Part shown: in pieces, positions 24,740-39,603 of the stretch
How positions within the stretch are numbered: position 1 is the stretch's first letter
Layout of the letters: every line of letters starts with the position of its first letter
DNA from: Formosa sp. Hel3_A1_48
Lineage (GTDB): Bacteria; Bacteroidota; Bacteroidia; Flavobacteriales; Flavobacteriaceae
DNA length: 64,000 nt
NCBI RefSeq assembly: GCF_001735715.1
Contig: NZ_CP017259.1
Span: forward strand, 803,501-867,500
Reading direction: 5' to 3'
Notes under the pieces: model-generated
What the model saw: only the letters and a program-made list of their open reading frames with translations
Told to the model about the DNA's origin: nothing
Databases searched by the model: none
Made by a program: the position numbers and the translations under genes

Positions 24740-26428
24740 TTGAAATCCAATCATTTAATTCCATTAATTATTTTGCTGTGCTGTGCCTGTTTTTGGACAG
24801 CTCATGCCCAAGAATTAACGCTCAAAATTAATACTGAAATTGAAGCCAATCAACATGTCATTGATGAATTGGGATACAGCAAAATTTTTGAGGACATGGC
24901 TATGGCTGAATTAGAAATTGAACGCGTTCAAAAAAAACTTACTGAAATTGGCTACATAAATATTCAAATCGTCTATCAAAAAGTCGGAAAAAGCAGCATC
25001 AACGCAAAACTAAGCCTTGGGCAAAAATACAATACCGTTGATATTTTTGGGCCACTAAAATATTTTGAAGAATTGGGCTACAACCCACTTAAGGAAGCAG
25101 AAAAAGAAATCTCTTTTGTGCGCATTCCAATCGAAAATCTAGCCTATGTATTAAGCGAAGTTTCTAAGTTGTTAGCGGATGAAAGCTATGCATTTGCTGC
25201 GGTTCGACTCGACAACCTAAAACCGAATGGAGGTAAATCATTACGTGCGGATTTAATTATTGATAAAGGAAACAAACGCAGTATTCAAGGAATTAAAGTT
25301 TTGGGGTATGAAAAATTCCCGAAAAGCTACATTTCTCATTTTTTGGGTATAAAAACCCAAAAACCTTTTAGCTTAGAGCGTGTAAAATCAAAAATGGAAC
25401 TTCTACAGCAGCTTCCTTTTGTACGCCAAAAACGAGCTGCAGAAGTACTGTTCACTCCAGACACCACGCGTGTTTACCTGTACTTAGAAAAAATTAAAAG
25501 CAATCGCTTCGATGGATTTTTAGGTTTTGGGTCGAACGAAGAGACCGGAGCGATTGAATTTGATGGTTACTTAGATTTGACCCTTATCAATAACCTCAAT
25601 TTTGGCGAGTCTTTTAAACTCAATTACAAAAGCGACGAAAACGAACAAAAAACCTTTAATGCAACATTAGAGATGCCCTATATTTTTGGCAGTCCAATAG
25701 GCAGTTCTCTCGATCTAAATATATTTAAAAAAGACACCACTTTTACGACAACACAACAGCGTATAAAACTATTTTATCCGTTTGGAGACAAACAACAAAT
25801 AGGGATTGAATTGCGCAACCTACAGTCCAATGTACTAACTGAAAACACCTCCAATGAAATCGAAGATTATGACAGTCAATTTTATGGACTAAATTACCAG
25901 TACATCAAGCGTCAAAAAAACAACGCATTATTTCCAATAAAAAGCCAACTCAAATTTACTGCTGGTTTGGGTCAAAGATCAACAACTGAAACGAATGAAC
26001 AGCGGCACCTCCAACTCAAAGCCCATCACATCGTACAGCTCAATCCCAAAAACAGTATTTTCCTAAAACTTCATTTGGAAGAACTTGACTCAGACCAGTA
26101 CCTATTCAATGAACTCATTAGGTTTGGAGGGATTAATTCTGTTCGAGGATTTGAAGAAAATAGCTTATTTGCCACGCGTGTTGGAGTCCTTTGTACAGAG
26201 TACCGTTATCAGCTAAGCCCTTCTTTATTTGTTCACAGTATTATTGATGCGGGGTACATGCAGGACGCCCAACTGAGCAACCAACAGCTTTACGGCTTCG
26301 GATTTGGATTTGGCCTGCGCACCAATGCCGGACTCTTACGCTTTAACTATGCCAACGGCAAACCCAAAAATCAAAGGTTTAATTTTTCGAATTCTAAAAT
26401 TCATTTGAGCCTAACTACTACTTTTTAG
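24740..26428 (+). CDS. BamA/TamA-family outer membrane protein
   Basis: Predicted Omp85-family outer membrane barrel. Its role is unknown: assembly or insertion of envelope proteins is the family theme. The 562-residue protein has a signal peptide (cleavage after about residue 23, TAHA-QE), POTRA-like repeats at roughly 90-255 and a barrel from about 260. IRFGGINSVRGF with VRGF at 468-471 is the Omp85 loop-6 motif, and it ends with Phe (LTTTF), typical of barrels. The start is TTG at 24740: the frame has a stop at 24716 and no ATG or GTG in between. It is divergent from rpsL. It appears shorter than full BamA (about 800), so it is TamA-like or a lineage-specific paralogue. Confidence 0.85.
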   Translation: MKSNHLIPLIILLCCACFWTAHAQELTLKINTEIEANQHVIDELGYSKIFEDMAMAELEIERVQKKLTEIGYINIQIVYQKVGKSSINAKLSLGQKYNTVDIFGPLKYFEELGYNPLKEAEKEISFVRIPIENLAYVLSEVSKLLADESYAFAAVRLDNLKPNGGKSLRADLIIDKGNKRSIQGIKVLGYEKFPKSYISHFLGIKTQKPFSLERVKSKMELLQQLPFVRQKRAAEVLFTPDTTRVYLYLEKIKSNRFDGFLGFGSNEETGAIEFDGYLDLTLINNLNFGESFKLNYKSDENEQKTFNATLEMPYIFGSPIGSSLDLNIFKKDTTFTTTQQRIKLFYPFGDKQQIGIELRNLQSNVLTENTSNEIEDYDSQFYGLNYQYIKRQKNNALFPIKSQLKFTAGLGQRSTTETNEQRHLQLKAHHIVQLNPKNSIFLKLHLEELDSDQYLFNELIRFGGINSVRGFEENSLFATRVGVLCTEYRYQLSPSLFVHSIIDAGYMQDAQLSNQQLYGFGFGFGLRTNAGLLRFNYANGKPKNQRFNFSNSKIHLSLTTTF

Positions 26429-26434
26429 GCGTGA

Positions 26435-27727
26435 ACAAGATTAAAGGATCAAACCACTACAACAAATGCCTATAGAGATTTCTGGGCCTTTGGAGATCAG
26501 CCAAGGCGTGAGATGAACAACGCCTCGACCAATGGTAATTTACCCACAATATCTTCTAATTGGAGTGACTTTAACAGTCAAATTTATAATGCCAATACCT
26601 TGTTAGACTTAGTCAACAATAAAGGTCGCGTCATTTTAAATGATAATGATGAGGACGTTACAGACCATTTGGTAATTACCTCAAAATTCATTCGTGGTAT
26701 GAGTCAGGGATATATTGGCTTGTTGTATGACAAAGGGTATATTGTTGACGAAAATACAGACCCAGCAATACTTGAGTTTTCAACTTATGAAGAAATGATT
26801 AACTCTGGGCTAGAAGACTTGCAAGATGTTTTGAACAATACACCAAGTAACTATGAATTAAGATTGTACGAAGGTTACAACATAAACAGAGATGATTTTA
26901 TCAAATTGGTAAATACATATATGGCAAAATTCATCATGGGGAAAGCACGAACTTCAGCAGAAACTGTAGATTATAACAAAGCATTGACACACATTAATAA
27001 TGGTATAACAGCAGATTTTAATCCTCCTGCAAAACAAAATATACTATTTAATGATGGGCAAGATTGGATGTGTTATACGCTTTCTGGCGGAGCGGGCTAT
27101 ATTCCAGTTGATCAAAAAATCCCATACTTGTCCGCCAATGATCCTGTTACACAACCAGCAGACTACCCAACGGACACTACTGTTTTGGGGCAGGCAACGT
27201 CTAGCGATCCTAGATTTGCTCAGTATTTTGGATATACCACAAATTTTGGTTATTTAAATGCAGCTAGAGGCAGAGAATTGTTTTCTAATTACTTTCACAA
27301 ACGTTTTAAAACAGCAAACAACAGAAATGTAGATGGATATTCAACCAATATTTTTAGTCTTGCAGAGTTGCAGTATTTAAAAGCAGAGGCACAATACAAA
27401 TCAGGAGATTTTGCTGGAGCTGCAACTACATTAAATAGTTCTCCAAGATATACAGTAGGAAATATTACAACTTTAGCAAATGATGCTGAAATTAAAAAAG
27501 CACTACTTTATGAGTATGCAATTGAACTGCATTTAAATGGAAGTTTGGGTAATAATTATTTCTTTATGAGAAGAAATGATCTTTTGCAAAAAGGAACACC
27601 AACAAATTTCCCTGTTCCAGCTAGTGAACTAGAAATAACAGGAGATATGACTTACACCTTTGGTGGTGAAGCTAATGCTGGTCAGGATGGAACAGCAAGT
27701 GGCACAAACTCATGGAAAACACTATAA
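26435..27727 (+). pseudogene. SusD/RagB family gene lacking its 5' end
   Basis: The first ATG is at 26513 (404 residues), but SusD-like sequence continues in frame upstream to 26435 (TTTTNAYRDFWAFGDQPRRE before that ATG), where a TGA stops it. The signal peptide, lipid cysteine and first roughly 60-100 residues of a normal SusD are missing. The rest is intact, including the TPR-like segment FSLAELQYLKAEAQYKSGDF and a natural-looking C terminus (SGTNSWKTL). No SusC partner precedes it; the BamA-like gene ends only 6 bases before the frame opens. Without an export signal the product cannot act at the surface. It is best read as a deletion remnant. Confidence 0.75.
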
Positions 27728-28209
27728 AAAAATCTAGATTTTTTAATTTCAAAAGAGTATGTCTTTATTTTGGCATGCTCTTTCTAGGTGCTATTTTATT
27801 AGTAACTTATTTAGGATGTGAAAAAGACATTCAGCATACAGAATCAGAATACTCTATCGAATATGACCCAATACATCTGGATAAAATAACCCCTGATTCT
27901 TGGTTAGAAATTGATGGTGTAAAAATTTGTCACGACTATAAATTTCAATTAAATAAAGAATGCTGTAATTTTACTGTTCCTTCTTTTAAATTCATAGAAT
28001 TTGAAATTGAGGGAAAACAACAAATTTCATACATGAACAAGATTGATTTTAGTATGCAATTGTATGAAAAAATTTTTAAAAATAGTAAATACTATGTTGT
28101 AACGAATGCAAACCTTATCTACAATGTTGGGATAATTAATTTTAAAAGAAAAGACAAGAAAGCTATCAACATAAGATTCAGTCAAGATTATCCATTAATA
28201 ATTAGGTAG
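27712..28209 (+). CDS. hypothetical membrane-anchored or lipoprotein
   Basis: Not recognised. The 165-residue protein has a basic N terminus, one hydrophobic segment at about 15-33 and then TYLGCEKD, a possible lipobox with acidic residues after Cys36. The rest is a compact region with a CHDYKF and ECCNF segment, so several cysteines. Its ATG lies inside the last codons of the truncated SusD gene in another frame, so it was probably cotranscribed with it. A strong terminator follows 13 bases after the stop. Confidence 0.6.
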   Translation: MENTIKKSRFFNFKRVCLYFGMLFLGAILLVTYLGCEKDIQHTESEYSIEYDPIHLDKITPDSWLEIDGVKICHDYKFQLNKECCNFTVPSFKFIEFEIEGKQQISYMNKIDFSMQLYEKIFKNSKYYVVTNANLIYNVGIINFKRKDKKAINIRFSQDYPLIIR

Positions 28210-28222
28210 ATGAAAAAATCAC

Positions 28223-28249
28223 AAAAAACCACCCACGGGTGGTTTTTTT
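28223..28249 (+). terminator. intrinsic terminator
   Basis: CCACC / GGTGG with a 4-base CACG loop, extended by flanking A and T runs, ends in seven T. It closes the transcript of the truncated SusD and small lipoprotein genes and insulates the SusC locus. Confidence 0.85.
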
Positions 28250-28488
28250 ATTTATCACAAGATAAAGGAATACCTAAATCATTGGTTTTTAGTGTTTAAA
28301 AATAGATTTTAACTGAAAATATCATTTAAGGATTTATAATTAAATCGGCACATTAGTTATCAATACTAGTGTTCGAGTAAAAATAATAAATTAAATGTTT
28401 AAATAAACTTCTTTTTTTTTGAACAAAAGTTGGTTTTTTGAGTTTTTATCATCACATTTGTGAGGACTAATTCAAATAATTAACAAAA
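28250..28488 (+). other. AT-rich intergenic stretch before susC
   Basis: About 240 bases without a gene. The final part holds a likely susC promoter; no anti-sigma or TonB-linked regulator gene and no repeat was seen. Confidence 0.6.
28430..28460 (+). promoter_or_regulatory. possible susC promoter
   Basis: TTG at 28430-28432, a 20-base spacer and CACATTTG at 28453-28460 resemble the flavobacterial TTG-N17/23-TAnnTTTG pattern with one mismatch (C for the first T). A start near 28467 would give a leader of about 20 bases. Confidence 0.4.
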
Positions 28489-31400
28489 ATGAAAACAAAG
28501 TTTAGTGTAATGCTGACGCTATTGTTAGCGTTGGTGGTGCAAATATCTTTTGCACAAAACAAAAATGTTTCAGGGACTGTTTCAGATGACAATGGGCTAC
28601 CTCTTCCAGGTGCTACTGTTGTTATAAAAGGAACATCAACTGGAGTTTCAACTGATTTTGATGGAAATTATTCTATAACTGCAAGTGTAGGCGACGTTCT
28701 TGTCTTTAGCTACGTAGGATACTCCAATCAATCTATAACTGTTGGAGCTAGTAATACGGTTAATGCATCAATGGTGCCAGATAATGCTCTTGAAGAGGTT
28801 ATTATCGAAGCATATTCAAACAATGCTATTAGCAAGGAAAAATCAGTTTCAGCCATTACAACTCTAACAGCTGAGTCCGTTGAGTCTAGACCAAATGCTT
28901 CTGTTGTTCAAATGCTTCAGGGACAAGTACCGGGTTTAAATATCGGTACAGGTTCTGGTCAGCCAGGGGCTAATAGTTTGATAATATTAAGAGGTGTAGG
29001 GTCAATTAATGGTAACATAGAGCCTTTATTCATAGTTGATGGTGTTCCAGTTGACGAAGATAACTTCAGGAGTATTAACAACGCTGATGTTGCAACTATT
29101 TCTATATTGAAAGATGCTTCTGCCTCTTCTCTTTATGGTAGTAGAGGAGCAAATGGAGCGATTGTAATAACTACCAAAAAAGGAAAGTACAATTCAAATC
29201 TTACTGTTAACTACAAATCTCAATTTGGTTTTTCACAGCTTCCAGAGCAAAATTTTGATGTGATGAATTCCCGTCAAAAATTAGAACTTGACCGTTCTAG
29301 AAACCAAGGTCTTGGAAATGGTCTCTCAGACCAGGCAATAGCTGCTATAGCCGACCAAGTAAACACAGATTGGTCAGATGTATTCTTTAGAAATGGTACA
29401 ACTAATTCTCATAACATAAGTATTTCTTCTGGATCTGAAAAAACCAACTCATACTCTTCCTTTAATTATTTCGAGCAAGAAGGGGTAACTAGAAGAAGTA
29501 GCTTACAAAGGTTCTCATTCAGAAACAATTTTAATGGTAAGAGTGAAAATGATAAATTTAATTATTCATCATCGATAACTGCAAATTATAGCACTAGTGA
29601 TTTTATTCAAAACGAAGGTACTGGTAACTTATCGAATCCATTTTTGGTTCCTTACGTAGCTTTACCATACTATTCACAATACAATCCAGATGGAACATTG
29701 AATATTACTGGTTCTGGTGAAGATAGTTTTGCAAACACTCCTTACACTTCTTTAAACAATACTATCCTTAATACAAATTTACAAGAAGAAGTTAAATTTA
29801 TTGGGAATGTTAGAGCTAATTATGAGTTTGCTGAAAATCTCACAGCTGGCATGTCTTTTGGTTTGGATTATACCCAAATCACAGGTAAGTTTATTGAAGA
29901 CCCTCAAAGTATATATGGTCAATCAGCTGTTGCCTCAGGTGATGCAGAATATCAAGGAAATCATTTTGAGCAATTTTTTAGAGACATTCGATTCAATAAC
30001 ATTGTCAGCTTAAATTACAACAATGTGATTGATGACAAACACACTATAGACGTAACTGCATACTTAGAATACAGTAAATCTCACTCTAACTCATTCTCTC
30101 TAGACCAATATGGTTTGAACCCTAAACTTGTTGGTAACGGTGCTTCATTTATTCCTGGAGACACTTATGAAGACTTGAACGAGGATGGTGTTATTGACGG
30201 TGCAGCAGAATTTCCATACATTCCTTCAGTAGCTTCTAGTGAAGTTGAAGTTGGATTGTTCTCATATTTTGGAGTTTTAAAATATGACTACGATGGCCGA
30301 TATGGTCTTCAAGCGTCATGGAGACGTGATGCGTCTTCAAGGTTTTCTAACTCTAATAAATGGGCGACTTTTTACTCAGTATCGGGTAGATGGAATATTC
30401 ACAAAGAAGACTTCATGCAAAACAACACTTTCTTTGACAACCTTAAGCTAAGAGCCTCTTATGGTACATCCGGTAATGATCGTATCACAGGTGGTTACTA
30501 TGGTGGAACAACGAATACTTACAACTTATATGGTCAAGGAACAGGATACAACAATACTGTAGCCTATTATGCCTCTTCAATTGCAAATGATGATTTGAAG
30601 TGGGAAACAAACAAACAAACAAATATTGGTATTGACTTCTCAATTCTAAACCGCAAACTAAGTGGTAGTATTGATGTTTATGATAAAACTACGGAAGATT
30701 TATTTCAATCATTCCCTGTTTCTAGTATCAATGGAACAAATTCTATTCAAGCCAACATAGGTTCATTGAACAATAGGGGAGCTGAACTTTCATTAAACTG
30801 GCAAGCAATTAATAGTGGAGATTTTTCTGTCTCTATTTTTGCAAATGGATCATACAACAAAAACGAAATCACAAAATTACCAAATGGAGAAAATGTTGAT
30901 AATGGCGGTAGAACCATTTTAGCTGAGGGGCAGCCAATTGGGTCCTTCTTCGCTGTAAGATGGGCTGGTGTAAACCCTGCTAATGGTCAAAACCTATATT
31001 ATGACGTTGATGGGAATGTTACAGATGTTTACTCAGAAGATGATAGAGTTTTTATTGACAAAGCAATATATCCTACCTATCAAGGTGGTTTTGGTTTCAA
31101 TAGTACTTGGAAGAATTTCACATTAGACACTCAGTTTTCTTTTGTTGCTGATATATACAGAAACAACGGAAGTTTAGGGGTAATTGAAGATCCTACTCTA
31201 ACAAGTCTATCAAACTCATCTACAAGCCTTCTTGATGCTTGGCAACAACCTGGTGATGTAACATACATACCTGCTTTATCTACCGAGTCAATAAGAAACA
31301 GATTAACTGATAGATATATTGAAGATGCATCCTTTTTAAGATTGAGAAATATTACTCTTGGATACAACCTAGGCAATCTCCTCAAAGAAGGATCACCGAT

Positions 31401-31551
31401 AAGTAAAATGAAAGTTTTTGTACAAGCAGAAAATCTTATAACGTGGAGTAAATGGAGAGGCTGGGATCCTGAATCAAGTTTTAGATCAGGCGATTTTTTC
31501 GACTATCCAACTTCAAAAATATTCACAATAGGACTTGATGTTAATTTTTAA
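28489..31551 (+). CDS. SusC/RagA-family TonB-dependent transporter
   Basis: Outer membrane active transporter that works with its SusD lid to import oligomers using TonB energy. The 1020-residue protein has a signal peptide (1-23), a carboxypeptidase-regulatory-like domain (about 24-100; VSGTVSDDNGLPLPGATVVI), a plug domain (about 115-230; QGQVPGLNIGTGSGQPGAN and LYGSRGANGAIVITTKKG) and a large beta barrel ending in a terminal strand IFTIGLDVNF. It is first of a five-gene plus-strand locus with SusD, two lipoproteins and a secreted subtilase. No carbohydrate enzyme lies nearby, so peptide import is the more likely role; this is inference from context. Confidence 0.95.
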   Translation: MKTKFSVMLTLLLALVVQISFAQNKNVSGTVSDDNGLPLPGATVVIKGTSTGVSTDFDGNYSITASVGDVLVFSYVGYSNQSITVGASNTVNASMVPDNALEEVIIEAYSNNAISKEKSVSAITTLTAESVESRPNASVVQMLQGQVPGLNIGTGSGQPGANSLIILRGVGSINGNIEPLFIVDGVPVDEDNFRSINNADVATISILKDASASSLYGSRGANGAIVITTKKGKYNSNLTVNYKSQFGFSQLPEQNFDVMNSRQKLELDRSRNQGLGNGLSDQAIAAIADQVNTDWSDVFFRNGTTNSHNISISSGSEKTNSYSSFNYFEQEGVTRRSSLQRFSFRNNFNGKSENDKFNYSSSITANYSTSDFIQNEGTGNLSNPFLVPYVALPYYSQYNPDGTLNITGSGEDSFANTPYTSLNNTILNTNLQEEVKFIGNVRANYEFAENLTAGMSFGLDYTQITGKFIEDPQSIYGQSAVASGDAEYQGNHFEQFFRDIRFNNIVSLNYNNVIDDKHTIDVTAYLEYSKSHSNSFSLDQYGLNPKLVGNGASFIPGDTYEDLNEDGVIDGAAEFPYIPSVASSEVEVGLFSYFGVLKYDYDGRYGLQASWRRDASSRFSNSNKWATFYSVSGRWNIHKEDFMQNNTFFDNLKLRASYGTSGNDRITGGYYGGTTNTYNLYGQGTGYNNTVAYYASSIANDDLKWETNKQTNIGIDFSILNRKLSGSIDVYDKTTEDLFQSFPVSSINGTNSIQANIGSLNNRGAELSLNWQAINSGDFSVSIFANGSYNKNEITKLPNGENVDNGGRTILAEGQPIGSFFAVRWAGVNPANGQNLYYDVDGNVTDVYSEDDRVFIDKAIYPTYQGGFGFNSTWKNFTLDTQFSFVADIYRNNGSLGVIEDPTLTSLSNSSTSLLDAWQQPGDVTYIPALSTESIRNRLTDRYIEDASFLRLRNITLGYNLGNLLKEGSPISKMKVFVQAENLITWSKWRGWDPESSFRSGDFFDYPTSKIFTIGLDVNF

Positions 31552-31561
31552 AAAAATGACG

Positions 31562-32977
31562 ATGAAAAAAATAAATAATTTAATATTAGTATGTGGTTTA
31601 ATCTTCATTGGATTTTCTTGTGAAGATGCTACAGACATATTTCCAGAAGGAAATTTAACAAGTGATGTTACTTTCGAAACTCTAGATGATTTACAGTTGG
31701 GTTTGAATGGAGCATACGCTAGATACAGTCCTGAAGACGATATATTAATCAATTCAGTTTTTACAGACAATTGTAAACCAGGTTATGACAACGGTGGTCA
31801 GGAAATTAATTTTTATAACTGGGCACTTACTGCTGGTGATGGAAATACAACTAGCCTCTGGAATAGTAATTATAGATTAATAAACCAGTGTAATAGAGTT
31901 TTAGAAGCTTCTGATTTAATTACAGCAAGCGGAGAAGCAGAACAAACTGAACTCAACAATATTAAGGGTCAGTTACTTACACTCCGCGCTATTGGACATT
32001 TAACTTTAGCTTCCTATTTCACTACTGATTACTTAGACGGAGATGCTCTATCTATTATTATCTCAGATCGTGTTCCTGGAACTTCAGAAACACTTCCAAG
32101 AAATACAAACTCAGAAGTATACAGTTTTATCGCTAATGATTTAAATACAGCTAGCACTTTACTTTCTGATCAGTCTGATAATAAGTATGTTTCCCAAGAT
32201 TTAGTTACTGGATTAAAAGCAAGATTAGCATTACTACAAAACGATTCTAGTGCTTTAACTCATGCTCAAACATTAATTGATGCTTATCCTCTTGCAGGTC
32301 AATTGCAATATTTAAGTATGTTTCTTGACACAGATAACACTGAGGTTATTTTCAAGGCCGCAAGAACATCTGGATTAGTTGGTGGTTTATGGTATTTTAC
32401 AAACTCTGCAGGCCCGTTTATTGAGGCTTCCAACAGTCTTCATGATGCTCATAATCCAGCTGATATCAGGTTGTTTGCTAACATTAACTTCAACACGAAC
32501 AACGGAGGACCGAGTGAACCTGAAAATAACATTCACCTAATCAATAAATACCCAGGAAATGCATCTCCATTCTTGAGTGATATAAAGGCTATGAGAGTTT
32601 CTGAAATGTATCTAATTAAAGCAGAGGCTCAAGTCAATGCTAATAATTTAGACGGAGCGGCAGCAACCTTGAAAGTGTTAAGAGATGCTCGTTTAGGAAC
32701 TAGTACAAGTCTTGATTCTTATATTTCTCAAACTCAGGCATACGATGCAGTGTTAAAAGAAAGAAGGCTCGAATTAGCTTTTGAAGGTCATAGATATTTG
32801 GACATTAAAAGATTTAAAGATAGATTGAATACTGGAATTAACAGAGATGATTTGGATTGTGTTTCTGGTGGAAACTGTGTAATGCTTCCTAGTGACCACA
32901 GACTTACTCTTCCAATTCCACAAGTTGAATTAAATGCAAATCCTTCAATTGTTCAAAATCCGGGATATGCCAACTAA
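31562..32977 (+). CDS. SusD/RagB-family surface lipoprotein
   Basis: Surface substrate-binding lid of the SusCD complex. ATG 31562 (MKKINNLILVCGLIFIGFSC) gives a lipoprotein signal with Cys20; ATGs at 31556 and 31535 are also in frame, but the latter overlaps susC. SusD features are the N-terminal LNGAYARYSPEDD region, a TPR-type helix LYLIKAEAQVNANNLDGAA-like segment near the C-terminal third, and LAFEGHRYLDIKRF. At about 470 residues it is on the small side. It starts 10 bases after susC ends. Confidence 0.93.
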   Translation: MKKINNLILVCGLIFIGFSCEDATDIFPEGNLTSDVTFETLDDLQLGLNGAYARYSPEDDILINSVFTDNCKPGYDNGGQEINFYNWALTAGDGNTTSLWNSNYRLINQCNRVLEASDLITASGEAEQTELNNIKGQLLTLRAIGHLTLASYFTTDYLDGDALSIIISDRVPGTSETLPRNTNSEVYSFIANDLNTASTLLSDQSDNKYVSQDLVTGLKARLALLQNDSSALTHAQTLIDAYPLAGQLQYLSMFLDTDNTEVIFKAARTSGLVGGLWYFTNSAGPFIEASNSLHDAHNPADIRLFANINFNTNNGGPSEPENNIHLINKYPGNASPFLSDIKAMRVSEMYLIKAEAQVNANNLDGAAATLKVLRDARLGTSTSLDSYISQTQAYDAVLKERRLELAFEGHRYLDIKRFKDRLNTGINRDDLDCVSGGNCVMLPSDHRLTLPIPQVELNANPSIVQNPGYAN

Positions 32978-32993
32978 TAGAAAAACTAATATT

Positions 32994-33848
32994 ATGAAAA
33001 AGATAACTTTATTATTATTGACTATAATAGCGTTTTCCTGTGGTGAACATGAAAATGTTATTTATGATCCAAATACAAGTACAACATTTGCAACTTTCGA
33101 TGCTACTTCAACAGCAATGGAAGTGTATTTAGGTGATGAACCATTATCAGATACTATTGATGTAAGTGTTAGTACACTATCTAGTGAAGATAGAACAGTT
33201 GTATTAGCTGTTAACGAAGAATTATCAACAGCAGCAGTTGAATCTTATAATGTTGACTTGCAGGTTATAATTCCTGCTAATGAATATTTTGGAACTGCTA
33301 ATATAACAGCGCTGACTGATGAACTAACCCTATGTTCAACTGCAACAGTTGTACTGAATATTGTATCTGTTAGTGATGGTGGAGACTTTAGTGCTGCAGC
33401 ACACTCAGTTGGTATGACCAAAAACGAAAACCCTCTTCCAGACGATTTTGCAATAGGTGATTACACACTTACCTTCAATGGTGGTGGTATAGGAGCTACA
33501 GCAAATGCCGGTGTATGGGGCGATGGTACCGTAGTTGAAGTTACAGCAGGTTCATCAAACTCAGAAAGAGTATTTAGTGTTAAATGCTACCCTTCATTTG
33601 GATTTAGTAATCCAAATGCAGACTTCTCAATTGACTTAGTTTGTGGTAATTCTATATTCAATGGAGCTATCAACAATACTTTTACAGGTGTAGGGTGTGG
33701 TTCTTCAATTGTACTTGGTCCAACTTCGGTAAATGGGTCATATAACGGAACAGATGATTCAACCTTTACTTTAGTATTTGCTGAGGACGTCGGTGGCGCA
33801 TCTTGTGGAGGTGAAGGAATTACATCGTATACATTTACTAAAAATTAA
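32994..33848 (+). CDS. surface lipoprotein of the SusCD locus (DUF1735/Calx-beta-like)
   Basis: A 284-residue predicted lipoprotein: MKKITLLLLTIIAFSCGEHE with lipid Cys16. Residues about 25-120 look like an Ig/Calx-beta-type fold (DVSVSTLSSEDRTVVLAVNE, VIIPANEYFGTANI), the pattern seen in DUF1735-type surface glycan- or peptide-binding proteins; the C-terminal half is Gly/Ser/Asn-rich and unassigned. ATG 32994 is chosen because the earlier in-frame ATG at 32934 overlaps susD and hides the signal peptide. Likely role is a second surface binding protein, like SusE/F. Domain assignment is tentative. Confidence 0.7.
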   Translation: MKKITLLLLTIIAFSCGEHENVIYDPNTSTTFATFDATSTAMEVYLGDEPLSDTIDVSVSTLSSEDRTVVLAVNEELSTAAVESYNVDLQVIIPANEYFGTANITALTDELTLCSTATVVLNIVSVSDGGDFSAAAHSVGMTKNENPLPDDFAIGDYTLTFNGGGIGATANAGVWGDGTVVEVTAGSSNSERVFSVKCYPSFGFSNPNADFSIDLVCGNSIFNGAINNTFTGVGCGSSIVLGPTSVNGSYNGTDDSTFTLVFAEDVGGASCGGEGITSYTFTKN

Positions 33849-33859
33849 AACTCAAGGAA

Positions 33860-34738
33860 ATGAAAAAAATAAATAAATATCTAGTATTGTTTTTATCTGT
33901 GGCTTTTTTAGTTGCATGTAATGACGATGACAACAACGGTCTGGGTGAGGAAAATCCAGAAAATGGTTGGTTACAGTTTGACGGAACAGATCCATCAGTA
34001 ACATTGCTGAGCAACGATTTATTGACAGAAGAGACTTCCACTATAAAGATCCCTTTTAGATTTACTGCACCAATAAACAAATCAGAAATTGTTTTGGATT
34101 TCACTACTGCAGATGTACAAGGAAGTTCAAGTGATGTTATTTTAAATGGCTCAGGAAGCTCAATCATAGCTGCCAATACTTTGGATGGAATTATAACGCT
34201 TAACATTGATTTGGCCAGTCTGGAACTAAACATAGCTAATACATACATTTTTGATGTGGTAATGCAATCAAATAATAGAAATGTAGGTATGGGTATTGCT
34301 CCAGATTTTTCATCCACATATAGAGTAACTATCAAGACATGTGACCTTATAGACATGTCAGGTACATACAGCGTGACTACGACCTATGGATACCATGATT
34401 TTTTACCTGATAACAATCCCATAACAAAAGAGGTTGATATCACAGCCCTTGGTGACGGAAGTTTTTCGGTAGCTGATTTTTCAGGTGGATTATGGCCAGA
34501 TGTCTACTCCCTTGTATATTCAATGGGGGATGGATATTTTCCTTTAATTTTTACTGAAGTCTGTGGTGAAGTCATGTGGTCTGGTCAAACTGAAATCTAT
34601 GGTGATGTTTTGATGCAATCAGAAACTCTTGGAGACAATAGCCCAAATAATGTTGACCCAGATACTGGTGTCATTACAATATCTTGGTATTGTAATGGCT
34701 ATGGTGAATATGGTACATCAATTTATACACCGTTATAA
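33860..34738 (+). CDS. surface lipoprotein of unknown function
   Basis: A 292-residue predicted lipoprotein with MKKINKYLVLFLSVAFLVAC and a run of Asp/Asn right after the cysteine (CNDDDNNG), matching the acidic surface-export signal of Bacteroidota lipoproteins. The remainder is beta-rich with TSTIKIPFRFTAPI and a C-terminal domain containing SGTYSVTTTYGYHDF, TKEVDITALGDGSFSVADFSGG and CGEVMWSG. It starts 12 bases after the preceding lipoprotein and shares its general layout, so it is probably an accessory binding protein. Specific function not recognised. Confidence 0.65.
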   Translation: MKKINKYLVLFLSVAFLVACNDDDNNGLGEENPENGWLQFDGTDPSVTLLSNDLLTEETSTIKIPFRFTAPINKSEIVLDFTTADVQGSSSDVILNGSGSSIIAANTLDGIITLNIDLASLELNIANTYIFDVVMQSNNRNVGMGIAPDFSSTYRVTIKTCDLIDMSGTYSVTTTYGYHDFLPDNNPITKEVDITALGDGSFSVADFSGGLWPDVYSLVYSMGDGYFPLIFTEVCGEVMWSGQTEIYGDVLMQSETLGDNSPNNVDPDTGVITISWYCNGYGEYGTSIYTPL

Positions 34739-34760
34739 AATATCAAATCAAATAAGAAAG

Positions 34761-34787
34761 TTGGGGCTGTTTTATAGACAGCCCTAA
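34761..34787 (+). terminator. hairpin after the lipoprotein gene
   Basis: A stem with core GGGCTGT / ACAGCCC (up to 10 bp with flanking pairs) and a 7-base loop lies 22 bases past the stop. The T-run is poor, so it may be a partial terminator or mRNA 3'-end stabiliser before the protease gene. Confidence 0.45.
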
Positions 34788-34807
34788 CTATTTAAATAGA
34801 TCCCAAT

Positions 34808-36739
34808 ATGAAAAACACAGCTCTTTTTATATTCGTGTTTAGCTTTCTCGTAGCGACTTCTCAAACCTTAGAAGAACAAAAGGAAATTACTAAAAATTAT
34901 AATCTTGAGGCTTTAGATAAATTAGAAACGAGATTGATTACAGAAAACGAAGAGATTAAAGAAGAAATAAATACGTTTCTTAAAAAAAACAAAACAGTTA
35001 AAAAAATAATAAAATCAGGAAATAAGAACTACTACATAGCTAAAATTATTGATGGTAAGCCAATGTACATTACGACTGACAATGTAAATAGCGCCAAAGC
35101 TACGAGAACAAATTTCCTACACAATGGTGGGGGGCTGGGTTTAAACTTAGAAGGTCAGAACATGAATATTGGAATATGGGACAAGGGAATTGCACGAGTC
35201 ACACATTTTGAATTTAGAGAAAGTGACACCTCATCTACTTCAAGGGTACAAAATGGGGATGGTGCTGCTGGTTATGATAGCCACGGTACACATGTTGCTG
35301 GCACTATGATTGGTAGAGGGTACCAGAGTGGAAGAAAAGGAATGGCACCTCAAGCTGGTTTAATTTCATATGATTGGAATAATGACAATACAGAAGTACT
35401 AAATCAAGCAAGATTTGGAGGTTTGTTAATTTCTAACCACTCTTATGGATTTCCTGTAAGAGACCCTGATAATAATGCCCAAAATGCTCCATCATGGCTT
35501 ATGGGTTGTTACGATACAGATGCTGCTAATTGGGATGGTATTGCCTATTTAGCACCCTACTATCTCCAAGTCGTGTCAGCTGGGAATGATGGAGAGTCAA
35601 CATACTCAGGAGGATTAGCAGGCGGTTTTGATAAATTAACAGCTGAAAAAAATGCGAAAAATAATTTAGTTGTGGCAAATGCTAATAACCCATTTATAAT
35701 TAATGGTAATGTACTTAGTCTTGCAATTAATCAAAGTAGTAGCCAAGGACCGTCTGACGATGGAAGGATAAAACCAGATATTACAGGTGATGGAACAGAT
35801 GTAACTTCAGCTGAGAGTGGTAACGATTTGGCTTATGGAGTGAAAACAGGCACTTCGATGGCTGCTCCAAATGTTTCCGGATCATTGTTATTACTGCAAC
35901 AATACTACAACGAAATTAATAATGAATTTATGAAATCGGCGACCCTCAAAGGTCTTGTTTGTCATACCGCTAGTGACGATGGTTCAAGAGTTGGGCCAGA
36001 TCCAATTTTTGGATGGGGTTTATTGAATTCAAAGTTTGCAGCAGAGACTATTTTGGCCGCTTCACAAGGCGGTGCACATATTTCTGAGCGTACACTTTCA
36101 GATGGCGGAACTTTTTCAACAACAATGGAGGTTGTATCAGGTGAACCTCTGAGTGCAACTATATGTTGGACAGACCCTGCAGGAACAGCTCGTGACGGGT
36201 CAAGCAATAGCCCATTAGCTGCTTTAGTCAACGATTTAGATTTAAGATTAACAGGGCCAAGTGGTGGTACAACTTATTTTCCATGGAAACTAGATCTAAA
36301 TAATATTTCTGGTTCTGCAATTACAGGTGATAACTTAGTGGATAATGTTGAAAAAATTGATATTGAAGATCCGACACCGGGCATCTATACACTAACGGTG
36401 TCACACAAAGGAACTCTTACTGACGATGCTCAAGATTTTTCACTTATAGTTACAGGATCAAATTTAACTCTAGGAACAGCTGATATAGAAATATCTACGG
36501 TTCATATATGGCCAAATCCAGCGCTAACAGAAATTAATTTTAAATTTCCAGCTTCGGAAAAAACTACACAATTAATGCTCTACGATTTAAGAGGAAGAGT
36601 AGTTTACGAAGATGAGATTTCTAAAAGTAATGGTACCATTAGAGGTCAAATTGATACGTCGGCCTTCGCCAGAGGTGTTTATATTTTGAAAATAAACCAA
36701 GGAAACACATCAACACAGAAAAAAGTAGTACTGAAATAA
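34808..36739 (+). CDS. secreted subtilisin-like (S8) protease with T9SS sorting domain
   Basis: Extracellular serine endopeptidase. The 643-residue protein has a signal peptide (1-18), a short prodomain-like region (about 20-105) and an S8 domain with the triad Asp125 (IGIWDKG), His159 (DSHGTHVAGT) and Ser350 (GTSMAAPNVSG), plus the oxyanion Asn260 (SAGNDGES). A beta-rich domain (about 420-550) resembles the C-terminal domain of kp43-type subtilases, and the last 75 residues (IWPNPALTEINFKF ... VYILKINQG ... KKVVLK) are a type A T9SS sorting domain. It follows the SusCD genes, suggesting it supplies peptides to that importer. Confidence 0.93.
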   Translation: MKNTALFIFVFSFLVATSQTLEEQKEITKNYNLEALDKLETRLITENEEIKEEINTFLKKNKTVKKIIKSGNKNYYIAKIIDGKPMYITTDNVNSAKATRTNFLHNGGGLGLNLEGQNMNIGIWDKGIARVTHFEFRESDTSSTSRVQNGDGAAGYDSHGTHVAGTMIGRGYQSGRKGMAPQAGLISYDWNNDNTEVLNQARFGGLLISNHSYGFPVRDPDNNAQNAPSWLMGCYDTDAANWDGIAYLAPYYLQVVSAGNDGESTYSGGLAGGFDKLTAEKNAKNNLVVANANNPFIINGNVLSLAINQSSSQGPSDDGRIKPDITGDGTDVTSAESGNDLAYGVKTGTSMAAPNVSGSLLLLQQYYNEINNEFMKSATLKGLVCHTASDDGSRVGPDPIFGWGLLNSKFAAETILAASQGGAHISERTLSDGGTFSTTMEVVSGEPLSATICWTDPAGTARDGSSNSPLAALVNDLDLRLTGPSGGTTYFPWKLDLNNISGSAITGDNLVDNVEKIDIEDPTPGIYTLTVSHKGTLTDDAQDFSLIVTGSNLTLGTADIEISTVHIWPNPALTEINFKFPASEKTTQLMLYDLRGRVVYEDEISKSNGTIRGQIDTSAFARGVYILKINQGNTSTQKKVVLK

Positions 36740-36755: not shown

Positions 36756-36783
36756 AAAAAAAGCGGGCAATGCCCGCTTTTTT
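36756..36783 (+). terminator. strong intrinsic terminator
   Basis: GCGGGC-AAT-GCCCGC flanked by A7 and T6 gives a long stem ending in a T-run. It ends the SusCD/protease locus 16 bases after the protease stop, and the flanking A-run means it can work for the opposite strand too. Confidence 0.93.
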
Positions 36784-36823
36784 ATTATAGAATAACAACT
36801 GAATTAAATTGTATTTTTACAGC

Positions 36824-37576
36824 ATGCAAAAAGAAACAAGTCTGTACGGGTTACGCGCTATTTTAGAAGCCATTGAAGCCAACAAATCTATTGATAAAGT
36901 GTTTTTACAAAAAGGGCTTAGAGGTGAGTTGTTTTCTCAATTAGAACATAGTGTTAGAAAAAGAGGGATCAATTGCAGCTATGTGCCTATAGAAAAACTC
37001 AACAGGCTTACACCAAACAACCACCAAGGTGCTGTGGCACATATTGCCCCTATTGCGTTTTATGAATTAGATGCGTTAGTTTCCGCAGTAAAAGAAACAA
37101 AAGAAAATCCTTTATTTTTAATTCTCGATCAGTTGAGTGACGTACGCAACTTTGGCGCCATTATTCGTACTGCAGAATGTACTGGAGTCGATGGTATCAT
37201 TGTACAAAAAAGTGGAAGCGCCCCAATCAATGGCGATACCATAAAAACAAGTGCTGGAGCGGTATTTAACATACCTATATGTAAAGTAGATCATATCAAA
37301 GATGCTATTTTTTACTTTCAAGCCTCTGAAATTAAAGTAATTGCAGCCACAGAAAAAACAGATCAAACACTTTATGAAGTAGATTTTAAAGCAGCAACCG
37401 CCATCGTTATGGGCTCTGAAGGTAAAGGGGTCTCCCCTTCTGTTCTTAAGCTAGTTGATAACAAAGCCAAATTACCAATGTATGGCAGTATCGCCTCATT
37501 GAATGTGTCTGTAGCTTGTGGCGCTTTTCTTTACGAAGTGGTGCGCCAACGTCACTCCTCCTCTTTGAAAGAATAG
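36824..37576 (+). CDS. rlmB: 23S rRNA 2'-O-methyltransferase, RlmB/TrmH (SPOUT) family
   Basis: SPOUT methyltransferase, probably for Gm2251 in the 23S P loop. ATG 36824 (MQKETSLYGLRAILEAIE) is chosen; a TTG at 36809 adds only five residues. The 250-residue protein has the substrate-binding N-terminal domain (LQKGLRGELFSQL, NHQGAVAHI) and the SPOUT motifs DQLSDVRNFGAIIRTAECTG, IVMGSEGKGVSP and SIASLNVSVACGAFLYE. Its 3' end overlaps the rhomboid gene on the other strand by 25 bases. Confidence 0.9.
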   Translation: MQKETSLYGLRAILEAIEANKSIDKVFLQKGLRGELFSQLEHSVRKRGINCSYVPIEKLNRLTPNNHQGAVAHIAPIAFYELDALVSAVKETKENPLFLILDQLSDVRNFGAIIRTAECTGVDGIIVQKSGSAPINGDTIKTSAGAVFNIPICKVDHIKDAIFYFQASEIKVIAATEKTDQTLYEVDFKAATAIVMGSEGKGVSPSVLKLVDNKAKLPMYGSIASLNVSVACGAFLYEVVRQRHSSSLKE

Positions 37577-38277
37577 TGTATTTGAGGATTTGAATCCTTC
37601 TCAAATTTTGATGATTCAATAAAATTACCATCTTCATCAAATTGCTGTAAAAAAGGATCCTCAGAAGCATCAAAATCGGCTTCTTCCCAAGCATATTTAA
37701 TGGGTTTAGCAATGGAAGATTTAAATCTAAGAGAAAACAAAATACCAACTACAAATCCCGAAAAATGACCTTCCCAAGACATTTTTTCCTTGACAGGAAA
37801 AATGTACCATATCATTCCACCATAAAGAAAAACAACAACTAACGAAAGGGCAATCAATCGGTAATGCTTTGAAAGTAATCCTTTAAACAAAAGAAAACTC
37901 AACAATACATAAATAAGTCCACTCGCACCAATGTGGTAAGCTGAGCTACCAATACACCAAGTCATAAATCCAGAAAGCAGAATCCCTCCTACTACAATTT
38001 TCCAGGCAACGGGCCTGTAGAAATAAAACAAAGCCATAGAAAGAACTAATAAAGGAATACTATTGTGGTATACATGGTCCAAAGAACCATGAACAAAAGG
38101 GCTAAAAATAACGCCAATTAACCCCTCTAATTTACGAGGATAAATTCCCAACTCGCTGAGATGAAGACCAAATCGAAAATCGGCCCAAAAAACGAGCCAA
38201 ACAAGCAGGACAAAAAAAAGCGGGTAACCCAGAACGCCAGTCGTAAATCGAAAAGATGAAGCTGTTTTCATAGACAT
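37552..38277 (-). CDS. rhomboid-family intramembrane serine protease
   Basis: Membrane protease with six predicted segments. The Ser-His dyad is present: Ser119 in IGASGLIY and His171 in SWEGHFSGF; HNSIP at 71-75 supplies the supporting Asn. After the last membrane helix a hydrophilic acidic tail (about 60 residues; EEADFDASEDPF ... HYSFKEEE) extends into the cytoplasm. The final 25 bases overlap rlmB convergently. Substrates unknown. Confidence 0.9.
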   Translation of the reverse strand: MSMKTASSFRFTTGVLGYPLFFVLLVWLVFWADFRFGLHLSELGIYPRKLEGLIGVIFSPFVHGSLDHVYHNSIPLLVLSMALFYFYRPVAWKIVVGGILLSGFMTWCIGSSAYHIGASGLIYVLLSFLLFKGLLSKHYRLIALSLVVVFLYGGMIWYIFPVKEKMSWEGHFSGFVVGILFSLRFKSSIAKPIKYAWEEADFDASEDPFLQQFDEDGNFIESSKFEKDSNPQIHYSFKEEE

Positions 38278-38325
38278 AAAAATACGAAACTTGAAATTAC
38301 TTAAAAAAAAGGTTTAATTTGTGGT

Positions 38326-39603
38326 ATGAATACGCCACTTGCCGAACGTTTACGTCCAACTACATTATCAGACTATATAAGTCAGCAACATTTGGTAGGA
38401 CCACAAGGTGCGCTTACACAAGGGTTGAAACAGGGTTTGATCCCTTCCATGATATTATGGGGACCACCAGGCATAGGGAAAACTACACTAGCTACCATTA
38501 TAGCCAAGACATCTGATCGGCCGTTTTACACCTTGAGTGCTATAAATTCTGGTGTTAAAGACGTGCGTGAAGTTATTGAAAAAGCCAAACAAAGCGGTGG
38601 CCTTTTCACTACTAAAAACCCTATTCTTTTTATTGATGAAATTCACCGCTTCAGTAAATCACAACAAGATTCGCTGCTGCAAGCTGTGGAAAAAGGGTGG
38701 GTAACACTCATTGGAGCAACCACAGAAAACCCAAGCTTTGAAGTCATCTCTGCCCTATTGTCTCGCTGTCAAGTGTATACTTTAAACCCTTTTGAGAAAA
38801 AAGATTTAGAAGACTTATTACAACGTGCAATTACCACCGACGAAGTTTTGCAGTCAATACAAATAAAGCTAAAAGAAACCGAGGCGCTCATTCGCCTTTC
38901 TGGTGGAGACGCTCGAAAATTACTCAATATTTTTGAACTTATTATCAATTCGGAGTCATCGGAAAAAATTATAATCACCAATAAACTTGTAACTGAGAAG
39001 GTACAAAACGATGTTGCCTTGTACGACAAGAGTGGAGATCAGCACTACGATATTATTTCGGCCTTCATAAAATCCATTCGAGGTAGCGATCCCAATGCAG
39101 CGGTATATTGGCTTGCTCGAATGTTATCTGGTGGCGAGGATGTGAAATTTATTGCAAGACGGTTATTGATTTTGGCCAGCGAGGATATTGGAAATGCTAA
39201 CCCCACAGCATTGGTTATGGCCAATTCTACAATGCAAGCAGTCGCTAGTATTGGTATGCCTGAAGCCAGAATCGTAATCAGTCAATGTGCAACCTATCTG
39301 GCTTGTTCTCCAAAAAGTAATGCGGCCTACCAGGCCATAAATTCCGCTATGGAAACCGTAAAAAATACGGGGGACCTAAGTGTGCCTTTGGACCTTCGAA
39401 ATGCACCCACAAAGCTTATGAAAACGCTAGGCTACGGTGAGGAATACAAATACGCTCATAACTATGATGAAAATTTTGTTGCTCAAGAATTTTTACCCCA
39501 AACCATAAAGAATACCACATTTTATACCCCTGGTGATAATGCTAGAGAACAAGCCCAAAAAGACTTTCTAAAACAACGCTGGAAGGATAAATACAATTAT
39601 TAA
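38326..39603 (+). CDS. rarA: replication-associated recombination protein A (AAA+ ATPase)
   Basis: MgsA/RarA/WRNIP1-family ATPase acting at stalled forks. The 425-residue protein starts MNTPLAERLRPTTLSDYISQ, with Walker A GPPGIGKTT (46-54), Walker B LFIDEIHRF (101-109), the sensor segment GATTENPSFEVISALLSRC and the C-terminal MgsA tetramerisation domain (GSDPNAAVYWLARML, EDIGNANPTALVMAN). It is divergent from the rhomboid gene; TTG-N19-TTTAATTTG just upstream is a near-consensus promoter. Confidence 0.95.
   Translation: MNTPLAERLRPTTLSDYISQQHLVGPQGALTQGLKQGLIPSMILWGPPGIGKTTLATIIAKTSDRPFYTLSAINSGVKDVREVIEKAKQSGGLFTTKNPILFIDEIHRFSKSQQDSLLQAVEKGWVTLIGATTENPSFEVISALLSRCQVYTLNPFEKKDLEDLLQRAITTDEVLQSIQIKLKETEALIRLSGGDARKLLNIFELIINSESSEKIIITNKLVTEKVQNDVALYDKSGDQHYDIISAFIKSIRGSDPNAAVYWLARMLSGGEDVKFIARRLLILASEDIGNANPTALVMANSTMQAVASIGMPEARIVISQCATYLACSPKSNAAYQAINSAMETVKNTGDLSVPLDLRNAPTKLMKTLGYGEEYKYAHNYDENFVAQEFLPQTIKNTTFYTPGDNAREQAQKDFLKQRWKDKYNY

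Follow-up and report, generated by a model that had tools for sequence, protein, structure and literature searches.

Among the SusCD-family outer-membrane importers, RagAB and BT2261-BT2264 are pairs able to carry peptides (PMC7782687), and BT2261-BT2264 was found with a bound oligopeptide, as cited in PMC7782687 and PMC10132118. The ragAB locus of Porphyromonas gingivalis occurs as discrete allelic types, forming a mosaic of surface variants that is unrelated to strain phylogeny (PMC11817032, PMC5266723). Flavobacterium psychrophilum JIP02/86 possesses just one SusCD pair (PMC10132118). In the same species, THC0290_2100/2101 is co-regulated with a collagenase and the Dcp2 peptidyl-dipeptidase, which led the authors to propose oligopeptide import; the pair is said to have family-wide homologues, and a rhomboid gene, THC0290_2103, lies two tags away (PMC9723704). 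Gene neighborhoods that combine SusC and peptidases have also been reported (PMC7029141). Here, we analyze a plus-strand block of five genes (susC, susD, two lipoprotein genes, and an S8 protease gene) at positions 28489-36739 of a 64,000-nucleotide stretch of the Formosa sp. Hel3_A1_48 genome (NZ_CP017259.1, positions 803,501 to 867,500; hereafter, the window). We consider it probable that this block is a protein or peptide acquisition cassette at a chromosomal slot that is fixed among Flavobacteriaceae, and that whole SusCD cassettes are replaced at this slot by recombination. A literature search that covered few subscription journals found no paper on the slot or on its exchange.

The nearest precedent is allelic ragAB, although the window's case departs from it in scale, in the size of the unit, and in the boundaries. 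As with RagAB, an oligopeptide importer with four allelic types, the window has a SusCD-family pair without carbohydrate-active enzymes (CAZymes) and discrete types at one locus, and its genes lead us to propose peptide uptake following extracellular proteolysis. However, RagA types are ~58-69% identical to the W83 type and belong to one species, whereas the SusC proteins described here share 32-50% identity between species; moreover, the unit exchanged here extends to lipoproteins and a predicted secreted protease, and its slot is shared across the family. To our knowledge, the gingipains are not linked to ragAB. BT2261-BT2264 of Bacteroides thetaiotaomicron resembles the block in having a SusCD pair plus two extra surface lipoproteins, and its SusC (PDB 5fq6) is a sequence relative, but the window SusC is far nearer to RagA and another SusC homologue in PDB (340 and 347 bits) than to BT2264 (111 bits). 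We know of no linked protease of the type IX secretion system (T9SS) in BT2261-BT2264. As for F. psychrophilum, THC0290_2100/2101 very probably sits in the same slot, next to the rhomboid gene, and shares the peptide-import proposal; it differs in that a linked S8 protease has not been reported.

Whole cassettes are replaced at one position

The window's genome (G000) and one congener (G006) are sisters according to their flanking genes, with 96% identity for RarA, 95% for SpoU, and 94% for Omp85, whereas their cassette proteins are only 36% (SusC) and 23% (SusD) identical. The SusC of this sister is 83-84% identical to those of two other congeners (G007 and G010). Similarly, SusC of G001 is 79-80% identical to its counterparts in G003 and G008, though SpoU reaches 69%, and SusC of G009 shows 61% identity to a protein from another genus. 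Among ten congeners, we distinguished five cassette types, with SusC identities of 79-95% within a type (as high as in the flank, where SpoU is 69-94% identical) and 32-50% between types at equal flank distance; mean SpoU identity was alike within and between types (80.4 vs 80.5%). In addition, the approximately unbiased (AU) test rejects a clade of the two sisters for both SusC (p 4e-81) and S8 (p 3e-90). Thus, as at ragAB, there are discrete alleles at one locus that depart from the species tree, and whole SusCD cassettes have been repeatedly replaced there. Comparisons of species within Mesonia and within Winogradskyella gave a similar picture of exchange, where the case is weaker because the flanks are more divergent. 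A point that counts against the exchange is that most of the congener assemblies have the appearance of drafts or of metagenome-assembled genomes, though both junctions in the sister genome lie inside contigs. Since the G+C content of the cassette (35-37%) is close to that of the window (37%), composition shows no sign of recent transfer.

It is highly improbable that these cassettes were inherited vertically and evolved very fast in place, with no exchange. Outer-membrane proteins are often fast-evolving, and the Omp85 protein adjoining the cassette is indeed more divergent than RarA or SpoU. Nevertheless, vertical fast evolution was rejected on the strength of the AU tests and of the within- and between-type identities given above; furthermore, sequence identity changes in steps inside ~150 bp, and a truncated foreign cassette persists at the slot (both described below).

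Exchange boundaries and a remnant of an older cassette

The left boundary of the exchange lies in a susC leader of ~280 bp (positions 28390-28669, plus strand) that comprises the promoter region, the 5' untranslated region, the signal peptide, and the start of the N-terminal extension. This leader is 81-89% identical at the DNA level in all 10 slot-resolved congeners, irrespective of cassette type, and its best match in each genome is at the slot. An Rfam scan of the leader gave no RNA element above the gathering threshold. Compared with the sister genome, identity is 98% up to ~28530 and 58% at ~28570, and on the right it rises abruptly at ~36758, past the S8 stop codon and ahead of SpoU, from 55% to 97%. 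The latter step coincides with a terminator-like hairpin (~36757-36783, plus strand) that was read from the sequence and is absent from the list of our hairpin scan. In G009, the step lies inside the S8 gene, with a sorting domain that is 82% identical to that of the window and a catalytic part that is 37% identical. As the body is replaced between conserved ends, each genome retains its own promoter and signal peptide, and in some cases its export tail too. We infer that the exchange proceeds by homologous recombination at these conserved ends, which would be the 5' end of susC on the left and, on the right, either the T9SS tail of the protease or the terminator that precedes SpoU.

Upstream of the block, the window hosts a remnant of another SusCD cassette (26513-28209). 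On the Omp85 side, DNA identity to the sister genome is 95.4% up to 26458, where homology ends. A truncated SusD gene begins right after Omp85 (26513-27727, plus strand); its product is 50% identical to the full-length SusD in slot 1 of a different genus (G233), but it lacks ~94 N-terminal residues, with its residue 1 aligning to residue 95 of the G233 protein, and its SusC is gone. It is followed by a small lipoprotein gene, orf165, of the same older cassette (27712-28209, plus strand), the product of which is 34% identical to a 167-amino-acid protein in G233 (L224), and by a terminator-like hairpin detected by the hairpin scan (28223-28248, plus strand). In G233, SusC, full-length SusD, and the 167-amino-acid small lipoprotein lie directly before SpoU. 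The window thus keeps the tail of a displaced cassette beside the current one. No relative of the remnant SusD was found in any congener. SusC and SusD fragments are also present at the slot of G009. Both the older remnant and the exchangeable nature of the cassette in a family-wide slot go beyond the first-pass annotation of this DNA, which had described the block as a SusCD locus for protein utilization.

The slot across the Flavobacteriaceae

The slot, hereafter slot 1, is bordered on the left by an Omp85/BamA-like outer-membrane protein (24740-26428, plus strand; PF01103, 6e-11) that comes after rpsG/rpsL on the minus strand. On the right (36809-39603) lie genes for a SpoU methylase (plus strand), a rhomboid-type membrane protein (minus strand), and RarA (plus strand), the order of which is conserved in the congeners; these four are the genes nearest to the block. 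SpoU was found in each of 110 family genomes, and SusCD occupies the slot in all ten congeners with a readable region, the window's genome counted. Slot 1 holds 1-3 SusC genes in 39 of 40 further Flavobacteriaceae genomes, each from another genus, with G102 alone being empty. Indications of a mobile element were looked for and were absent: the window has no tRNA, there are no long repeats, and neither an integrase nor a transposase lies between Omp85 and RarA.

Similar cassettes also occupy a second slot, delimited by RNase HII and Porin_10, in 8 of 20 genomes; the genome of the window has no cassette there (L222, G000:C1:1614200-1629400). Tandem SusCD pairs (two or three), often of unrelated types, are common in slot 1 (L042, L074, L093, L163, L168, L191, and L197). 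As a separate observation, the border Omp85 diverges faster than the other flanks (66% identity between G000 and G003, compared with 87% for RarA), as if affected by its neighborhood.

Gene content of the block

The first gene of the block (28489-31551) encodes a SusC/RagA-family TonB-dependent transporter, which matches TIGR04056 with 763 bits (cut-off, 368). It is followed by a SusD/RagB-family surface lipoprotein, the putative lid (31562-32977; PF07980, 4e-25; PF14322, 1.6e-17), so that a TIGR04056 receptor and then a SusD-family lipoprotein are found, as in a SusCD outer-membrane importer. Two surface lipoproteins come next, LP1 (32994-33848) and LP2 (33860-34738), and the last gene (34808-36739) encodes a KP-43-like S8 subtilase with a type A T9SS sorting domain at residues 567-641. 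The intergenic gaps, from SusC to S8, are 10, 16, 11, and 69 nt. Lipobox-type N-termini are seen in SusD (IGFSC), LP1 (IAFSC), and LP2 (LVAC).

In the subtilase, the matches to PF00082 (5e-29) and PF18962 (9.5e-18) cover positions 1-288 of 288 and 1-74 of 75, respectively, and the catalytic triad (D125, H159, and S350) and the oxyanion residue N260 are all present. Residues 133-547 align to KP-43 (PDB 1wmd; E value, 1.7e-21), an S8 subtype with a catalytic domain and a C-terminal beta domain; unlike KP-43, the window protein carries an extra sorting domain. The latter scores 64.7 bits with PF18962 and 53.9 bits with TIGR04183, and together with a signal peptide recognized by eye it predicts secretion as type A T9SS cargo. 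Across nine aligned cassette proteases, the His, Asn, and Ser residues are invariant, and the position of the catalytic Asp (D125 in the window) holds Asp or Glu. Glu replaces it in four of the nine (the G008, G001, G009, and G050 cassettes), a further difference from KP-43. Collectively, the profile matches, residues, and hairpins bear out the earlier description of five plus-strand genes between terminators, ending in an S8 protease with an intact triad and a T9SS tail.

The structure models of LP1 and LP2 are mostly of low confidence (mean pLDDT, 62 and 57, respectively), and their usable part is confined to the N-terminal domain of LP1 (pLDDT ~85-93 at residues 51-110). According to the predicted structure and Foldseek (3nqk and 4jx0), this domain resembles the Calx-beta/DUF1735 domains of Bacteroides surface proteins, with a weak match to DUF4843. 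LP2 probably has a Calx-beta-like start as well (Foldseek, 4jx0 and 4dqa; low-confidence model). Structure prediction, suggested previously as a check on the two lipoproteins, was therefore informative for this one domain, while the rest of LP1 and LP2 was modeled with low confidence. The two proteins may set specificity, as had been guessed.

Coupling of the protease to the importer

Relatives were searched in 99 related genomes and in 80 named public contigs. In the named set, KP-43-like subtilases of 600-700 amino acids were found beside SusC (same strand, within 4.5 kb) in 16 of 16 cases, whereas only 1 of 64 longer multidomain S8 relatives was so placed. The named hosts are Mesonia, Winogradskyella, Confluentibacter, Gaetbulibacter, Algibacter, Psychroflexus, three Flavobacterium species, and one Saprospiraceae genome, and the short S8 occurs with SusCD in both chromosomal slots. 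In addition, distances among SusC, SusD, and S8 correlate at 0.85-0.99 across nine congeners, and those of SusC and S8 at r=0.88 (permutation p=0.0001, n=9 genomes), whereas SusC and the flanking SpoU give r=0.07; these correlations come from a small sample of nine genomes with few cassette types. Taken together, these patterns indicate that the coupling of protease and SusCD is real.

Several observations weigh against this coupling, and they would be expected if S8 were an independent gene for general proteolysis that lies beside SusCD by chance, with no functional tie to the importer. A G+C-rich hairpin (34764-34784; listed on the minus strand by the hairpin scan), together with the 69-nt gap, separates LP2 from S8. 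S8 is missing from the cassettes of G043 and of one congener, G002 (L076), and from that of G039, which lies in another slot, while in the 99-genome set two short KP-43-like subtilases (L059 and L068) stand alone, SusCD being absent. Two Flavobacterium species share 57% identity in S8 but 32% in SusC. Furthermore, S8 is absent from the slots of 36 of the 40 other Flavobacteriaceae genomes, and ~9 of the 40 carry an ASST-family protein instead. Even so, an independent S8 appears improbable to us, given that all 16 short S8 proteins adjoin SusC in two slots and many genera, that S8 distances track SusC rather than the flanks, and that S8 switches together with the cassette type. As the hairpin has no T run on the plus strand, co-transcription of S8 with SusCD is likely.

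Our data show that the protease is an optional module, which in many slots is absent or replaced. The number of lipoproteins also varies from 0 to 2 per cassette, and their order differs among relatives. A fixed five-gene locus is therefore not supported, with S8 absent in G002, G043, and most slots of other genera; what co-occurs in relatives is the protease and SusCD, which recur in many genera and in two slots. In other genera, a T9SS-tailed ASST-family protein of ~550 amino acids lies directly before SpoU (L166, L174, L182, L185, and L187, Pfam-tested), and proteins that are ASST-like by their similar N- and C-termini hold the same position in L176, L178, L180, and L181. In the slot of G111, the place of the protease is taken by an M4 thermolysin-like metalloprotease with a T9SS tail (L191:14396-16951).

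The probable substrate

No CAZyme, sulfatase, or sugar enzyme is encoded in the block or in the adjoining genes, in agreement with the first-pass annotation, and the block thus does not qualify as a polysaccharide utilization locus. The window's genome has seven full SusC genes, the other six of which adjoin glycoside hydrolases, sulfatases, or carbohydrate-binding proteins; because those six loci carry glycan-related genes, the SusC of the block stands out. Peptide as the putative substrate is favored by the linkage to a predicted secreted protease, by the absence of sugar enzymes, by the M4 protease in G111, and by the F. psychrophilum work, and the protein-to-peptide reading is favored because the protease-importer coupling holds. 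Proteolysis followed by peptide import, as originally suggested, accordingly gains from the coupling (16/16, r 0.88), while the import step is still deduced from the genes. Given that ~9 of 40 slots hold an ASST-family protein, the slot as a whole is not necessarily devoted to protein.

We also weighed whether SusCD imports a glycan or glycopeptide, with the protease stripping a glycoprotein so that sugars can enter, and we regard this as unlikely. In its favor, and against peptide import, the window SusC is about as near to the other SusC homologue as to RagA (347 vs 340 bits); several PDB matches of the SusD are labeled carbohydrate-binding by their depositors, and the lipoprotein folds resemble Bacteroides auxiliary surface proteins. 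On the other hand, the block is without a CAZyme, sulfatase, or sugar enzyme, which sets it apart from the six remaining SusC loci of this genome, and the probable F. psychrophilum equivalent, the sole SusCD of that species, shares its regulation with enzymes that degrade peptides (PMC10132118, PMC9723704). A call between glycan and peptide from the sequence affinity of SusC and SusD was tried and proved not possible, as RagA is not separated from other SusC homologues; the window SusD scores 33 bits against RagB, below many other SusD chains in PDB.

Proposed function and implications

In the explanation that we prefer, the subtilase would be exported via T9SS and cut proteins extracellularly, the fragments would be captured by LP1, LP2, and the SusD lid, and SusC would pull them in with energy from TonB. 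Cassettes at the slot, with or without a secreted enzyme, would be replaced by recombination. Diet, phage, or both may provide the selection behind the exchange. Surface transporters are common phage receptors, and if phages or bacteriocins have SusC as their receptor, evading them could be the main driver of the exchange, with diet being secondary. This proposal, which concerns only the selective cause and is compatible with a peptide acquisition cassette, is possible but not the option that we would choose. It would account for a constant leader and secretion tail alongside a varying barrel and lid, and the surface islands of Salinibacter ruber have prompted a similar argument (PMC6060240). 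However, the protease and lipoproteins swap and co-vary with SusC, which phage escape alone does not need.

More broadly, we lean toward the view that Flavobacteriaceae keep one or two fixed slots in which complete import cassettes are exchanged between species like alleles. The constant susC leader and secretion tail would serve as recombination ends, such that the transporter, lids, and enzyme are swapped as a unit while the slot keeps its own promoter and export signal. The specificity of SusCD systems is usually predicted from neighboring enzymes and then transferred between orthologous loci. Synteny would mislead here: although their flanks are 95-97% identical, sister species have unrelated transporters at this position. 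If our reading is true, the slot would be a natural experiment on recognition by SusC, SusD, and auxiliary lipoproteins, as the promoter and all other parts of the chromosome are constant, and protein-feeding specialization or phage pressure would be readable directly from marine metagenomes. Our findings also suggest that nearly all Flavobacteriaceae possess a SusCD pair that has no CAZymes linked to it.

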